DNA of 64,000 nt from Syncephalis plumigaleata (taxonomy: Eukaryota; Zoopagomycota; Zoopagomycetes; Zoopagales; Piptocephalidaceae). The stretch lies in NCBI GenBank assembly GCA_025201365.1, contig JAIXMF010000005.1, positions 744,001 through 808,000 of the forward strand, written 5' to 3'. Both the position numbers and the translations under genes were made by a program. The notes under the pieces were generated by a model. The model did not search any database and was not told where the DNA came from. It worked only from the letters and a program-made list of their open reading frames with translations. Positions 3,829 through 52,462 of the stretch are shown piece by piece. Numbering within the stretch: the first letter of the stretch is position 1; each line of letters begins with the position of its first letter.

Positions 3829-4574
3829 ATGCCACCAGAATCACCGCCATCCAGGTCAACACGCCGTAGTACGCGTCAAACCAAGCGACCTTACACGTCG
3901 TCTGAAGTATCTAAACGTGTCGACAAAGGAACACGTAAAACAACCACCACAACAACTAGTAGTTTAACAGATTCGACTGAGATAACACCATTATCCAAAG
4001 TAGACTCAATAACTACGAGTGATAATCCATTAACGGTGGTATTTGAGCATTGGTGAGTCTGTCTGAATATATCTATTCATCTATCTAATATGCTAATCGT
4101 GATATTAGTAAAAGCTGACGAGTATATGGCCGGAATGCCAGCAGTATTAGCGATGTAACTATTTCATTATTGCTGCTATCATCATTTATAACTTCTACTA
4201 ATTTACTCTAATAGATGATCCTAGAACATTTCCCTAATGCTGTCATCCGGGTAAACGAGACAAAGCCTCGATCGAAAAGCTTTGAGATCACCATTCATAC
4301 GAGTGATAATTCTACTATATCAGATGGTCAACTAGTTTGGAGTGGTATTAAAAAGGTAAGCAAAGCAGTAGGATAATAGCCATACAATAACTACATGCAA
4401 ATAAACGAATCAGTATGCTAATGATCTGTTATTATAATTAAAAAGGGCCCACCACGAAAGGAGAAATTCCCTGATCCTGTAGCTATCGTGCAAATGATCA
4501 AAGAAGCCGTGCTTGGTACTGATACATCAACATCAGCATCGGCATCAGCATCAGCATCAGCATCTGCTCATTAG
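3829..4574 (+). CDS. SELENOH: Selenoprotein H with in-frame UGA (Sec) codon
   Basis: Nuclear Rdx-family thiol-redox protein. Four exons: 3829-4052, 4109-4154, 4215-4355, 4446-4574. Exon 1 encodes a basic Ser/Thr-rich N-terminus resembling the nuclear-localisation region of animal SELENOH and ends in TVVFEH plus TG. The 46-bp second exon completes Cys and reads C-K-S-(TGA)-R-V-Y-G-R-N-A, matching animal SELENOH (CTSU followed by RVYGRNA). Exon 3 gives VNETKPRSKSFEITIHT and LVWSGIKK. Exon 4 gives GPPRKEKFPDP, the family's closing motif, then an Ala/Ser tail. All exons join in phase only if TGA at 4116-4118 is read through as Sec. TGA is an ordinary stop elsewhere in the window (EMC2, the siderophore synthetase), so this is recoding and not code reassignment. 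Confidence 0.9.
4116..4118 (+). other. UGA selenocysteine codon in CxxU motif
   Basis: The TGA occupies the U of the C-x-x-U redox motif, with conserved RVYGRNA directly after it and an open frame through two more spliced exons. Confidence 0.88.
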
Positions 4575-5187
4575 TTACACTGCTCTAATGAATGACGCGC
4601 AATAATAGCGATGAACCTAGCACTGACGATTACTCGGCGTATAAACCTAAATATCCATCGCTACACAAAGTATATACTTTTAAAGCGAACGTCGTAGTAG
4701 TCTGACTAGCTTTTATATCTAAATCTACATGCTAGATATAATAATGGTTGTTCTTGCTATATTCAAGTCATGCATTAGATGATAAGTTAGAATTGATTAA
4801 CTAGTAATAGTAATAAACAGATATATCAATTCATTATTGACATTCTAAAGATGATATGAATAGTAACTGCACTATTTATTTAATAGATTGTATATGTGTA
4901 TGTATAACATATATTGCTCAATGGATTGCTTATTCATCTATTCATTCATGGATGATGATGATGATGATGACAAGCTTATTTGGAATATGACCATGAATAA
5001 ACATGATTAGTTATTTATAAGAAGATGAAGATGAAGAAAACGAACGAACAAACTAAATTGCCATATCCAATCGATCTAATAGTCGCATTGTAATCAATAA
5101 ACATGCTACGCACACACACACACTAATATAATGATAACACAACCGTGCTTAGTCTTCCTTATAGGTTGTTGTTGCTAACTATGCTCC
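4575..5187 (+). other. Selenoprotein H 3' region, expected to hold a SECIS element
   Basis: About 610 bp between the convergent selenoprotein H and kinesin genes. A SECIS should lie here. I found no textbook one by eye. The best candidate is at 4703-4738: TGAC, then TAGC pairing with GCTA, an AAA in the apical part at 4721-4723, and GATA on the 3' side. Its central helix has mismatches and its lower helix is weak. AATAAA-like signals lie around 4812. Confidence 0.35.
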
Positions 5188-21597: not shown

Positions 21598-23181
21598 ATG
21601 GCTTCCATAACCGTATCAGTTGATTCATGGGTAAGTAGTAGTGGAATATATCGTGCATCTTACATATTGATACGTTATATGACGACATGTACTTACAATA
21701 TGGTATTAGAACACGTGTTTGAACACACCTCTAGAGGTGGAGGATCCAGAAATCTATGACTTGATCGAGAAGGAGAAATATCGTCAGTTCTCTGGTCTAG
21801 AGCTTATCGCCTCCGAGAATTTTACCTCCCAGGCGGTGATGGAGGCCAATGGATCTGCACTGACGAACAAGTACTCGGAGGGTAAGTAGCAGCGTGGTAG
21901 TGCAAGCTTTACAATGGAAACAAGCATGAATGTTGATCATATCTCCTCCCCTCTCTACGTATAACTAACTATAGGACTTCCCGGTGCCCGTTACTATGGT
22001 GGCAACGAGTATATCGATGAAATCGAGAATCTATGTCGTGCCCGTGCTTTGAAGGCCTTCCGCTTGAATCCCGAGGAATGGGGCGTCAATGTACAGCCGT
22101 ACTCTGGCAGCACGGCCAATTTTAGCGCACTTACCGCCATGATTCAACCACAGGATCGTTTGATGGGACTCGACCTTCCATCGGGTGGCCATTTAACGCA
22201 CGGCTACCAGACGGCCAAGAAGAAGATTTCCTCCAGTTCGATCTACTTCCAATCGATGCCATATCAAGTGGACCACAACACCGGTCTCATCGATTACGAG
22301 CGACTCGAGGAGAACGCCAAGCTATTCCGACCACGTTTGCTCATCTGCGGTGCCAGTGCCTATCCACGTGAATGGGATTACGCTCGTTTCCGTAAGATTG
22401 CCGATCAACACGGTGCCTACGTGATGGCCGATATCGCTCATATCAGCGGATTGGTGGCCAGCGAGGAGGCAGTGAGTCCGTTCACGTATTGCGATGTTGT
22501 CACCACCACTACGCACAAGACGCTACGTGGTCCACGTGCCGGTCTGATCTTCTTCCGCAAGAACGGTCCGGGCGATAGGGCCGATCTCGAGGCACGCGTC
22601 AACCAAGCGGTATTCCCCTCGAACCAGGGTGGTCCACACAATAACACTATCGCTGCAGTGGCCGTGGCCTTGAAACAAGCCGGATCAGAGGAGTTCCGTC
22701 AATATGCGCAACAAGTACGCGCTAATGCCTCGCATCTAGCCCAAGCATTGACCAACTACGGCTACAAGATTGCCACCAACGGTACCGACAACCATCTTAT
22801 TCTATGGGATCTACGTCCTGTCAAATTGACCGGTAGCAAGTTCGAGAAGATCTGTGACATGGTACACATCACTATTAACAAGAACTCGGTACACGGTGAC
22901 GTTAGCGCGTTGACTCCCGGTGGCTGTCGAATTGGCACTGCTGCCTTGACTTCCCGTAGTTTCAAGACAAAGGACTTTGACAAGGTGGCCGAATTCTTGC
23001 ATCGTGCCGTTCAAATTGCACTTGCCGCGCAAGAGAAGGCAGGCAGCAACTACTCAAAGACTTTGTCGCTGTATTGACCAACAACGATGATATTGCCACC
23101 CTTCGCAAGGATGTAATCGAGTTTGCCACCACCTTCCCAATGCCAGGTTTCGATGCCACGAAGATTAAACGATTCGAGTAG
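21598..23181 (+). CDS. SHMT: Serine hydroxymethyltransferase (PLP enzyme)
   Basis: Interconverts serine and glycine with transfer of the one-carbon unit to tetrahydrofolate. Exons 21598-21630, 21710-21880 and 21975-23181. There is no targeting peptide, so it is probably the cytosolic form. Hallmarks are [20 protein letters not shown], the PLP-lysine motif [17 protein letters not shown], and [18 protein letters not shown]. At 23049/23050 the conserved frame slips by one base. Continuing in the original frame gives a premature stop at 23075-23077, whereas the other frame gives [14 protein letters not shown], then [12 protein letters not shown] and a stop at 23179-23181, the normal SHMT end. A single missing A (AA for AAA, Lys) explains it. 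The rest is highly conserved with no decay, so an assembly error is most likely. Confidence 0.95.
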
Positions 23182-23802
23182 AATAGCATGATTATAGCTG
23201 ATATACCTAGTTGCAAGTGCCGCGTATATCAATAGCGGATATGTAACGATTTTATGAAATAAATAATGCGAGCACATCAAGTATAAACATATTTGACCGC
23301 GAATGTTCACCTGTACATGCATTATCCAACTCGTGTATCATATACGAATGAATTGATATGATGGTTATTTTTAATCTCATCAATATCACACTACACGTTA
23401 TAACGTAATCAAAATGAGTAATGCTGCTCGTGTTGTCATATCGCTCGATATAGATTTAGTATCGTTTCAATGAGTACGCTTGTCCTTGTACAGCATCGTG
23501 GTGTTAAGTATTATTGGAAGGTATGCACGCGCAATTGTATGAAAAGCATCATGATCTGAAACCATTCATCACAGATGGCTTACTCCCTATTACTATTATT
23601 ACTTTTTCTGTTATTATTGTCAAGGACTACATTATGAAATAAACTGGTTATTACGCATTATAAATAGCATGATGATTAGCGACGATTATAGATGGCAACA
23701 GCATTCGCACTCGTGTCTTCATTCCATGCTTATTTAGATTTTTTTACTACTACCACTACCACTACTACTACTACAGCCAACGAAGACGATTTTATTACAA
23801 CA
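23182..23802. other. Intergenic, SHMT to subtilase-like gene
   Basis: About 620 bp. The AATAAA at 23258 is a plausible SHMT polyadenylation signal. An (ACT)n tract lies at 23747-23773. Otherwise nothing is seen. Confidence 0.6.
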
Positions 23803-25719
23803 ATGCTCCTTCTAAACTCAATAAAGATAAGCGGTGCTTTATTGCTGCTAGCTATAGCACAGCATGCTACCGCGGAATTGGCCAAAGAGTTCGTTCTCAA
23901 TGATTCAGGAAGAGGACCTTACATTATATCAAAGCTCACTGGAGGACACCTGCCATTGACACCTTACTACGATGTGACAGGAGTAAAGAAGGCGAGCGAG
24001 GAACAAGTTAAATATACAGGAAAAGAAATAAGCATTGGCATCATCGGTGCTGATATTAACATTAAGAAATCCGGACTACTGGTTAATATACCATTCCCTG
24101 GTGATAGAAGAAATTCTCGACATATACCCTCTGGTGGCGTACTCAAGAACATCGTATATCGACAAGATTTGGTTGGAGACCAATTTGATGGAACGGATCA
24201 CCCTCCAGAAATTACGCATGATGATGAATGGTGCAATAAGCGTACCACTAGAATGGCCGGCATAATAGGTGCGAATAGCGAGACATTCAAAGGCATTGCT
24301 CCCAATGCAAAGATAGGTGTCTTTCGAGTATTCGGCTGTAGAGGTCACACGACAACGACAGCGGTGCTTAATGCTTTGAATAAGGCTATCCGTCAAAAAA
24401 TGAACATCATCACGCTTCCCGAGATTAAATATGTCGACGACAAGAAGGCTGAATTAGAAATGGCCATCGAACAAGCAGCCACTGCCGGTATCATCCTCAT
24501 TGCCGCGGTAGAACAGGGCGACTCACCCAATCAGGATACTTTCAGTACAATCGTGAGCATGTTATTGCAGTTGGCGGTGCTATAACCCCTATCGTGGTGG
24601 CCATTGGTTCAAGGATAAAAAGAGCAAGAAAAGGATTGAGTTTACGACGACTTGCGATACTATGCCATATATCCTTGATGGTGCTCGAGTAGCCGATGCC
24701 AAGGAACTTACTGGTGCGATGAATATTGCGAGACTATCAAAATCGGGTGTTACTGCATTGGCAGGAAAGGTCGTTATAGCGGATAAATATCAGAGTGAAT
24801 GGAGCACGGTGATACGAAGTATGAAGAGATACAAAGTGAAAGGAATGATTGTGACCAGCCATGATAAACTTATTTACAAATGCGATATTCCGGTATACTT
24901 TTTGACAAAAGACAAGGCTAACTACATAGCACGCGAGTACAAGAATACCGAGTTCGATTTCAGCATTCAACATGGCAACACCAATGAAGGCGGCAAGACT
25001 ACACTCGATGGAAGGACAATGCCCGCTCGTCATCTCATAGAGACTCTGCGACCAGACATTCTAGCACCAAGCCACGATCTAGTTACCGTGTCAGAAAGTA
25101 ATGCATTCAGTATGTGCATTATAGTGGTGCATCTGCAGCGGTTGCTTACGTTGCCGGTGCTGCAGCATTGTTACTCGAAGCACTTCATGGTCATCCCGTT
25201 AACTCTAAGATAGTCAGATATGCCATGCAGAATAGTGCAACACCGATTTATGAGCCATCATCGAAGCATCTCTTACCCGTTAACTATCAGTACTATGGAA
25301 TGCTAAATGTGCACAAGCTACTCCATAATGGCTTGAATGCCACTCCCTCCTTGATCGTAGTGACGGGTGTGAATCAAATACACACGAGAGCCATTCAATT
25401 GTCTACAACGTATAACACGACGAAAAGATACAGAATAATTCATAAGCCTGCAGGTACTATAATCAGATTAGACGATAACACTTCCAGAGTAGATTATAGT
25501 CCTGAATTAATGGCACAAGTTGTCAAGGATTACTCGGTGGATGTACCACGTAGATCGAGTAGAGAGGTTAAGATTGGTATCATGCTCCCGGCTTCCCTCA
25601 TGCCAGCCAGGTTCACCTACTCTGGTTACATTGTATTCGATCCAGAGCCAACTGTATCCGAGGAACCATCGGATGAGGCCATTTACATTCCATATCTTGG
25701 ATTTGTTGGTGCAATATAA
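23803..25719 (+). CDS. Secreted subtilase-like protein with PA domain, catalytic residues apparently altered
   Basis: ATG 23803 is preferred over 23692 because it opens a signal peptide (MLLLNSIKISGALLLLAIAQ). Layout: propeptide-like start, subtilase fold, PA insert (GKVVIADKYQSEWSTVIRSM), then YSGASAAVAYVAGAAALLLE, the equivalent of the GTSMAxPxVAG Ser motif, and a beta-rich C-terminus. It resembles fungal Vpr-type subtilases. Where active enzymes have DTGI and HGTHVAG, this reads IGIIGADINI and KRTTRMAGIIGAN, so the Asp is displaced and the His is missing. It is either a pseudoprotease or a decaying gene. The frame changes three times between about 24540 and 25140, each with the sense of one missing base, so sequence error may explain those changes but not the missing His. 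No introns are seen. Confidence 0.7.
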
Positions 25720-39785: not shown

Positions 39786-40971
39786 CTAATCCATATTCTG
39801 CATAAGACGTGCTAGTTGCGACTGCATTCTAGCCAATCTATCCTTGACCTGTTGTCGTTCAGCATCACCTAGATTACGTACATTCGAGGGAGATATGGCA
39901 GGATCCAGTTCCAATACTTGATCCTTGCCTAAAGGTAGTGTAATAACCGTTTCAGGTGAAGTGATCGGCACGAGTGATGGCTCACGTCGTAATGTAAGTC
40001 GTTTTGATGTATGTTTCGATTTAGTCTGAGCTACCGGTGTTGTCAAGGCCGTCTTACGACTATTCGCCTTATTCATCGCTCTACTTGTCATGAGTGGTGT
40101 TTTCGGAAGACGACTACTTAGTTTAGGTGTTGCCATTTGTGCAGTAACACTAGTAGCGGTTGTGGTTGTAGTAGTTGTAGTAGTAGTAGCAGCAGTAGTA
40201 GTAGCATTAAATGCCAATGGTGGTGGTGGTGGTGCATTCATGGCAGATTGAGCTGTACGTGATCGTGTATTAATGGTACGTTTACGTGCTGATCGAGGAA
40301 TACGCGATGGTCGCATTGAACGCGTAACTGGTCGTGTGCTCGTTTGTTTCACTACCTTTTTATCATCTTCACAATCAGTATTGGTAGTACTGGTAGTAGT
40401 AGTGGATGATGTAGTATCTTTTGCTTTACGACTAGTATCAGGTGTAGATGGTTGGACAATGTCTGACTTCTTTATATCACTGCTAGATGTACTATTGAGT
40501 TGTGCCAAATATTGCGGTATATTACATTGATGTTCCTCGTAGAATACGCGTACAGCCATTTGTCGCACTTGTACAGGCATCATCGCTAGTCGTGCTTCAT
40601 ACTCGGCTCTAATCGATGCTACGAGTTCTTCGGTTCGTTTCTCCAATGCTGCACACTTCAACACGACTACTCAGTTGTTATTATAAGAAGTTAATAGACA
40701 TATCTTAGTCATACATGTACACATACTATTATTATTATTACTTACCTTGTTCATTGTACTCTCTCTGCCAATCCATAGTTTCTGTTGTTCCAGTATTCGT
40801 ACTATGTGTATTTGTTATAGTACCTTCACTTGTGGTAGTAACGGTGTTCATCGATGATGTCACAACAACACTTGAACTCTCATTACTAGTTGTTGTGCTG
40901 CTGTTTGTTGTTGTTTTCTTACGACTAGTGGTGCTTCTAACCGTACGCTTACGTGTTTTACGAGCAGCCAT
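39786..40971 (-). CDS. Borealin-like chromosomal passenger complex subunit
   Basis: Borealin joins INCENP and Survivin and targets Aurora B to centromeres. Exons 40971-40746 and 40666-39786. Features in order: basic N-terminus (MAARKTRKRTVR), a Thr/Ser-rich stretch, then the Nbl1/Borealin N-domain helix LEKRTEELVASIRAEYEARL, MMPVQVRQMAVRVFYEE (compare LPxxMRxMxWLDY in animals). A long basic, Thr-rich disordered region has many S/T-P sites. The C-terminal domain is PETVITLPLGKDQVLELDP with a closing helix RLARMQSQLARLMQNM, matching animal Borealin (IFLTVPVGxGxxL, then a helix). Confidence 0.8.
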
Positions 40972-52275: not shown

Positions 52276-52462
52276 GGCGGTTCGGCGCACTCGGTCGAAG
52301 GTGAAAAGACCGGCGCACCGTCCGACAGTCCGTTGCAAGCAACTGCAACTGCCGACCTTCCCAAAAATCGGTCTGATTACTTCTCTCCGTTGGAGAGATA
52401 TCAGCAATCAAACTGATAAGAACAGATACTACACTTGATCTAAGCCAATGGCTAGAGAGGAT
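52276..52462 (-). ncRNA. RNU2: U2 spliceosomal snRNA
   Basis: The minus strand carries, in order, a 5' stem-loop (CTCTCTAGCC with GGCTTAGATC), the invariant branch-point-recognition stretch ATCAAGTGTAGTATCTG, TTCTTATCAGTTTGAT (stem IIa side), an Sm site GATTTTTGG at about 52364, and two 3' stem-loops. The last hairpin pairs GGTGCGC with GTGCGCC (GU wobbles) around a GGTC/GACC extension. Length of about 187 nt matches the usual U2. The 5' end is set by homology at 52462 and the 3' end by the terminal hairpin at about 52276. The stem IIa/IIb area (ATATCTCTCC / GGAGAG) differs from animals. Confidence 0.95.

Follow-up and report, generated by a model that had tools for sequence, protein, structure and literature searches.

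Selenocysteine in fungi and the SELENOH gene of Syncephalis plumigaleata

Fungi were, to our knowledge, long held to lack selenoproteins. Nine early-branching selenocysteine (Sec)-using fungi, spread over Chytridiomycota, Zoopagomycota and Mucoromycota, are reported in the accessible text of PMC11378755, and seven of the nine are Harpellales according to that of PMC10386755. In the initial annotation of the locus described here, Sec was said to be known only from a few early-branching fungal lineages. Since seven species are Harpellales and at least one must belong to each of the other phyla, the accessible parts of the two papers would appear to leave no room for Zoopagales among the nine. 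For Zancudomyces, the Sec machinery and SelenoH are described together with their expression in the accessible part of PMC12611240. The DNA analyzed here, first taken to be from a "probable fungal-grade" genome, comes indeed from a fungus, the mycoparasitic Syncephalis plumigaleata (Zoopagomycota, Zoopagomycotina, Zoopagales). No link of Syncephalis with selenocysteine or a selenoprotein was found in the literature searched, which included few subscription papers; the accessible text of PMC10386755 names both Syncephalis and Sec without linking them, and the literature found on S. plumigaleata contained no "selen" term.

The assembly searched comprises 32.6 Mb in 383 contigs. The window, the stretch of 64 kb that was analyzed as a whole, corresponds to C329:744001-808000, and positions given without a contig number refer to it. 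It carries a gene for selenoprotein H (SELENOH) with the following parts.

3829..4052, plus strand: exon 1, with the ATG at 3829, a basic, Thr/Ser-rich N-terminus and the beginning of the Rdx domain (..TVVFEHC)
4109..4154, plus strand: exon 2, 46 bp, encoding CKSU-RVYGRNASSISD, placed by splice enumeration and by the S. fuscata frame test described below
4116..4118, plus strand: in-frame TGA, the putative selenocysteine codon, residue 78 and U of CxxU
4215..4355, plus strand: exon 3, placed by splice enumeration and alignment
4446..4574, plus strand: exon 4, with the GPPRKEKFP motif, an SAS-repeat tail and the TAG stop at 4572-4574

The introns are 56, 60 and 90 bp long, and the conceptual protein has 179 residues (MPPESPP...TVVFEH-CKS-(TGA)-RVYGRNASSISDMILEHFPN...GIKKGPPRKEKFPD...); codon 78 is TGA, and the reading frame ends at a TAG. 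Splicing was assessed by enumerating the GT-AG pairs that lie within short ranges of the exon boundaries first proposed. Four four-exon models preserved the phase, and because each of them held a single internal stop besides the final TAG, no splice choice within the ranges tried escapes an internal stop. Exon 2 was in the SELENOH frame in two of the four models, one retaining CKS-TGA-RVYGRNA and the other, with an acceptor 6 bases later, dropping KS. Skipping exon 2 would break the phase, since this exon is 46 bp long. The two structural claims from which this work started, that the four exons join in phase with TGA 4116-4118 read through and that this TGA falls exactly on the U of CxxU, were thus borne out, the second by the enumerated model with CKS-TGA-RVYGRNA.

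With Cys put in the place of Sec, the SELENOH protein matched the Pfam family Rdx (PF10262) at 4.8e-10 and 39.9 bits (cut-off 22.6) over residues 69-156, and the CxxU redox motif is present by sequence as TVVFEH-CKSU-RVYGRNA. The C-terminal motif GPPRK.KFP was invariant across an alignment of eight rows. The N-terminus was basic by eye and also resembled that of a protein of Syncephalis fuscata (P0001). A comparison with the PDB by sequence gave no significant match (best 0.72), and when another copy of SELENOH was sought at the DNA level, nothing but this gene and brief low-complexity matches came up. At the level of sequence, we consider it confirmed, far beyond chance, that this is a real SELENOH gene with an in-frame TGA. 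It shares with animal SELENOH (Rdx, PF10262) the CxxU site, the GPPRK.KFP end, the N-terminus, which is basic by eye, and the Rdx domain, and RVYGRNA after CxxU presumably corresponds to the animal residues as well. Unlike the animal gene, it has a Thr/Ser-rich N-terminus, an SAS repeat at the C-terminus and four exons separated by short introns, and it lies in a fungal genome.

Selenocysteine machinery and further selenoprotein genes

A tRNA-Sec was found in two identical copies, on contig C1 and on the small contig C65, scoring 74.7 bits against Rfam RF01852 (gathering score 47), and the same tRNA was called tRNA-SeC(tca) by ARAGORN. It has the UCA anticodon, a long acceptor arm and a 6-bp D stem, with two non-standard pairs; the other four of the six places from this search were tRNA-Ser. 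SepSecS lies on C35; the deposited S. plumigaleata protein matched TIGR03531 at 1e-157, and the joined exons matched the PDB SepSecS at 4e-109. SPS matched PDB SEPHS1 at 5e-97. The remaining machinery genes and the two further genes with an in-frame TGA, one of them SPS itself, were located as follows.

C318, about 1533.0-1530.6 kb, minus strand: eEFSec (PDB eEFSec 2.8e-39; euk_SelB_III above its cut-off)
C223, 626.3 kb, minus strand: PSTK (TIGR03575 1.1e-15), with a like-scoring place on C58
C362, 203.3 kb: L7Ae domain of SBP2, with a like-scoring place on C335
C101, 37785-36223, minus strand: SPS gene (locus L025), in which the SPS2 Sec site is an in-frame TGA and one intron is GC-AG
C223:388428-388430 (locus L052, 1929-1931): in-frame TGA at the Sec site of a GPX4-like GPx (PDB GPX4 4.2e-59)

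The matches of PSTK, eEFSec and SBP2 rest on partial, hand-joined exons. For PSTK, a stretch of 182 residues joined by hand, part of the protein, served as the query, and its 57.8 bits against TIGR03575 lie below the whole-protein cut-off of 382; a further place from this search, on C2, was taken as KTI12, the KTI12 profile being covered from end to end. The best PDB match of the SBP2 domain was SECIS-binding protein 2 (8.6e-11), the next best L7Ae protein reaching 0.03. The initial annotation had expected tRNA-Sec, SBP2, eEFSec, SPS and SepSecS in the genome and had made its reading depend on a genome-wide check for them. All five are encoded, PSTK is encoded too, and the reading came through the check.

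The SPS gene reads SSYAGLKG-TGA-GCK|VPQ, and we take the position of its TGA to be the Sec site of animal SPS2. Two introns of 69 and 54 nt that stay open in frame were removed from the SPS model by judgement, guided by strong GT-AG ends and the junctions GCK|VPQ and HKY|GAH. A search for GPx found one locus, in two pieces and of the GPX4 type. MsrA (locus L062, C318:1259367) carries Cys at its catalytic site (GCFW). TGA therefore stands at the Sec site in three of the four genes examined (SELENOH, SPS and GPx), with Cys in the fourth, MsrA, and by sequence the predicted selenoprotein genes found are SELENOH and at least two more, SPS and GPx. As its Cys-type MsrA indicates, not every redox enzyme of S. 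plumigaleata uses Sec. A search of the genome for the Rdx family found nothing and missed the known SELENOH too, its domain being split over three exons; since SELENOH itself was missed, SELENOW and SELENOT may still be encoded in the genome. A Sec-containing thioredoxin reductase was sought by the DNA pattern for GCUG-stop (0 matches with the reversed pattern as a control), and all six places obtained were, by eye, without a thioredoxin-reductase-like reading upstream; an intron-interrupted gene could escape this search.

Read directly from the DNA are the structure of SELENOH, the TGA at its conserved site, the machinery genes, the two other TGA sites and the TGA stop of a serine hydroxymethyltransferase gene described below. 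From these, it appears almost certain that the UGA at 4116-4118 of the SELENOH gene of this mycoparasite is decoded as Sec by way of SECIS, SBP2, eEFSec and Sec-tRNA-Sec. The SELENOH mRNA would be spliced from four exons, and the ribosome would not stop at UGA 4116-4118, where eEFSec with Sec-tRNA-Sec(UCA) would be recruited by SBP2 sitting on a 3'UTR SECIS. Sec would be synthesized by SerRS, PSTK and SepSecS together with SPS, presumably a selenoprotein itself, and the inserted Sec would complete the redox site CxxU in a protein that is small, basic and thioredoxin-like. Transcription, splicing, Sec insertion, the SECIS nature of the hairpin and a redox or nuclear role of the protein are what we infer; a role of this kind is known for animal SELENOH. 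The original proposal, a fungal SELENOH whose Sec is encoded by UGA, is supported by the Rdx match, the Sec machinery genes and the two further TGA sites.

Zoopagales seem by sequence to be a further Sec-using fungal lineage. S. plumigaleata resembles the Harpellales in being a zygomycete fungus with both SELENOH and the Sec machinery, as far as the accessible part of PMC12611240 goes. It differs in position, the Harpellales being treated under Kickxellomycotina in the accessible text of PMC10386755 and Syncephalis belonging to Zoopagomycotina. The presence of an SPS with TGA, a GPX4-like GPx with TGA and two near-consensus SECIS-like elements is a statement on Syncephalis alone. A multi-gene Sec system in Zoopagales would extend the fungal exception to another subphylum and would fit vertical inheritance with repeated loss, and a GPX4-like selenoenzyme would be added for a fungus.

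SECIS-like elements

Most fungal selenoproteins are reportedly without a consensus SECIS (Mariotti 2019). Two SECIS-like elements of putative function were found in S. plumigaleata.

4624..4706, plus strand: SECIS-like element in the 3'UTR of SELENOH, 50 nt after the stop
C101, 36155-36098, minus strand: SECIS-like type II element in the 3'UTR of SPS, in which A-UGAC and a 12-bp helix are followed by CAAA, by 25 apical nt that include a hairpin, and by UGAC

In the SELENOH element, C (4623) precedes UGAC (4624-4627), which is followed by a 13-bp helix II (4628-4640 with 4689-4702, one bulge) and by AUAAACC, its AAA (4643-4645) standing at the 5' side of an apical region, 48 nt long, with a hairpin of its own; UGAC (4703-4706) closes the element. 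According to the accessible text of PMC11227280, the first GA of eukaryotic SECIS is preceded by AU, rarely GU. Measured against the consensus [A/G]UGA..AA..GA with a helix II of 10-14 bp, the SPS element conforms (AUGA), and the SELENOH element has CUGA. Common to both elements and to the eukaryotic type II SECIS, as given in that part of PMC11227280, are UGA..GA under a helix of 12-13 bp, AA left unpaired in the 5' strand and an additional helix at the apex. The SELENOH element departs from it by its CUGA, its 48-nt apical region and the lack of an Rfam match; the Rfam SECIS models gave no match in the SPS 3'UTR either. When the two elements were aligned with MAFFT, their helices were out of register.

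The 226-nt sequence downstream of the SELENOH stop gave a better fold than 199 of 200 shuffled sequences (z -3.16). For the elements themselves, the z-score was -2.75 in SELENOH and only -1.31 in SPS, compared with -1.14 and -1.59 for two hairpins of the GPx 3'UTR. A scan for the SECIS layout on both strands of the 64-kb window returned two places, of which the SELENOH element was the better one (27 vs 20 points), and in 61.7 kb from 14 other loci the only place was the SPS element. These counts come from a widened scan written after the SELENOH fold was known; the first scan, limited to a spacing of at most 56 nt, had found the SPS element and missed that of SELENOH. Shuffled 3'UTRs reached the real score in 0 of 1000 cases for SELENOH and 2 of 1000 for SPS, and showed any match at a lower threshold in 15 and 7 of 1000, respectively. 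When seven other triplets were put in place of the 5' TGA, the window gave 0 to 4 matches against 2 for TGA, two of the seven giving more and five fewer. Taken alone, the motif is therefore not enriched; what counts in its favor is where it lies and how it scores. After GPx, a relaxed scan to 1180 nt past the stop found no SECIS-like element, and a hairpin of the 3'UTR (L052, about 2640-2690) with a 12-bp stem by eye was rejected as a SECIS, being without the UGA quartet.

The deviations of the SELENOH element could also be explained by an altered signal, the hairpin not being a SECIS at all and GPx having no signal of the usual kind. Such an explanation would replace one step of the proposed decoding and is compatible with the rest. 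It draws on CUGA in place of AUGA, on the 48-nt apical part without an Rfam match, on the missing element after GPx and on the two triplets that outnumber TGA for the same layout in the window. Set against it are the location of the SELENOH element directly after the stop, its 13-bp helix II, the register of AAA and UGA/GA, a score attained by none of the 1000 shuffles, and the SPS element with its AUGA and AA. We regard insertion by an altered signal as less likely than not. A further reading, to which we give somewhat less than even weight, is that Zoopagales are an unreported Sec-decoding lineage with a near-ancestral type II SECIS in some genes (SPS) and an altered one in others, namely SELENOH with its CUGA and 48-nt apical part and GPx with none recognizable. 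If it were true, a single genome would capture a fungal SBP2 whose recognition of SECIS is changing, and one could use it to test how the consensus SECIS was lost from fungal Sec insertion. The SECIS-like elements provide concrete sequences for testing Sec signalling in fungi.

Relatives, hidden annotation and origin of the genes

Formally, an in-frame TGA is a stop, and the gene could be a decayed or truncated SELENOH copy with a product of 77 residues. This is very improbable, given that the reading frame, the splice sites and the conserved GPPRKEKFP, RVYGRNA and TKPRSKSFEI are all kept downstream of the TGA, that two more genes have a TGA exactly at the Sec site and that the Sec machinery is present in the genome. 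Decoding of the TGA as Sec is also favored by the closest relative. In a collection of about 5.8 billion proteins, the best of seven matches to SELENOH was S. fuscata BDF19DRAFT_478949 (P0001, 8.8e-23), which is 45% identical in the alignment and has the same N-terminus and C-terminal domain. It differs in that its Sec exon is translated in a different frame in the deposited model, so that CxxU is missing: both ends match SELENOH, and TVKADEYTAEMQPIWAM stands at the place expected for CxxU. Exon 2 of S. plumigaleata, when the same bases are read in another frame, yields LKADEYMAGMPAVLAM, a peptide akin, by eye, to that of S. fuscata.

For a frame test, the S. fuscata peptide was back-translated with all codons and read two bases on. 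KSURVYGRNA was possible at 10 of 10 positions, a result reached by none of 5000 shuffled targets (best 8). The position of U allows Sec (TGA), Gly or Arg, and the longer stretch CKS..DMI fits at 12 of 18 positions. The test is strong for the presence of the Sec exon and suggestive for its TGA. Since the gene caller left the Sec frame, a stop codon in that frame seems likely, and S. fuscata probably also has SELENOH as a selenoprotein, misannotated. A near-identical deposited SELENOH of S. plumigaleata was not found among proteins of about 49-313 aa; a longer or fused model would escape. The warning that ordinary annotation would mishandle the Sec exon thus came true in S. fuscata, where the deposited model crosses the exon outside the SELENOH frame, an example of how such genes are concealed by automatic annotation.

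The six remaining matches, the metagenomic SELENOH-like proteins P0002-P0007, all have W at the Sec position. This is what a code reading TGA as Trp would yield, and UGA might likewise be read as Cys or Trp in S. plumigaleata, through a reassigned or leaky code. We consider such a code extremely improbable. One argument comes from another gene in the window.

21965-23077, plus strand: serine hydroxymethyltransferase (SHMT), with a TGA stop 26 residues past the end of the Pfam domain

TGA still works as a stop, since SHMT terminates at it soon after its domain; the lack of an inner TGA in the SHMT piece is uninformative, because the piece is a single stop-to-stop frame. In addition, the Sec site is the only inner TGA in SELENOH, in SPS and in the GPx part, and among the tRNAs examined at the candidate loci the anticodon UCA occurs only on tRNA-Sec. 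The W of the metagenomic proteins is more simply explained by the gene caller's use of code 4; with TGA called as Trp, these proteins are probably more hidden selenoproteins.

Among the SepSecS matches listed, the deposited S. plumigaleata protein showed 94% identity over 98%, followed by S. pseudoplumigaleata and S. fuscata (75% each). A tree was computed from 23 rows chosen by hand among the 120 matches listed of 3169. It split 15 animals from 7 fungi at 99/99 and joined the three Syncephalis at 100/100; it gave no firm order among the fungi and Polysphondylium, with a long-branch warning for Entophlyctis and Polysphondylium. By sequence, the tree argues against acquisition from animals and is consistent with vertical descent. 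Syncephalis is cultured on host fungi, so that mixed DNA is possible in principle, but an origin of the Sec genes from a contaminant (host fungus, animal or protist) of the mycoparasite culture is hardly credible when the closest relatives are Syncephalis for SELENOH and, among the matches listed, for SepSecS, when the tree sets the animals apart and the three Syncephalis together, and when the genes sit on 0.4- to 3-Mb contigs and have comparably short introns. The chytrids Polychytrium aggregatum (P0014) and Entophlyctis helioformis (P0080) were also among the SepSecS matches listed, which suggests, from the sequences, further Sec-using fungi.

Small contigs of the assembly duplicate parts of larger contigs (C65 and C1 at 94-99% in three pieces, C110 and C35 at 98%) and look like retained second haplotypes in a diploid assembly; C223/C58 and C362/C335 are probably further haplotig pairs, judged by like scores only. 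Besides SELENOH and SHMT, the window holds the following features.

52276-52462, minus strand: U2 spliceosomal RNA gene (132 bits)
23692-24585, plus strand: subtilase (S8) exon, by Pfam
39786-40670, minus strand: Borealin/Nbl1-like protein, by Pfam
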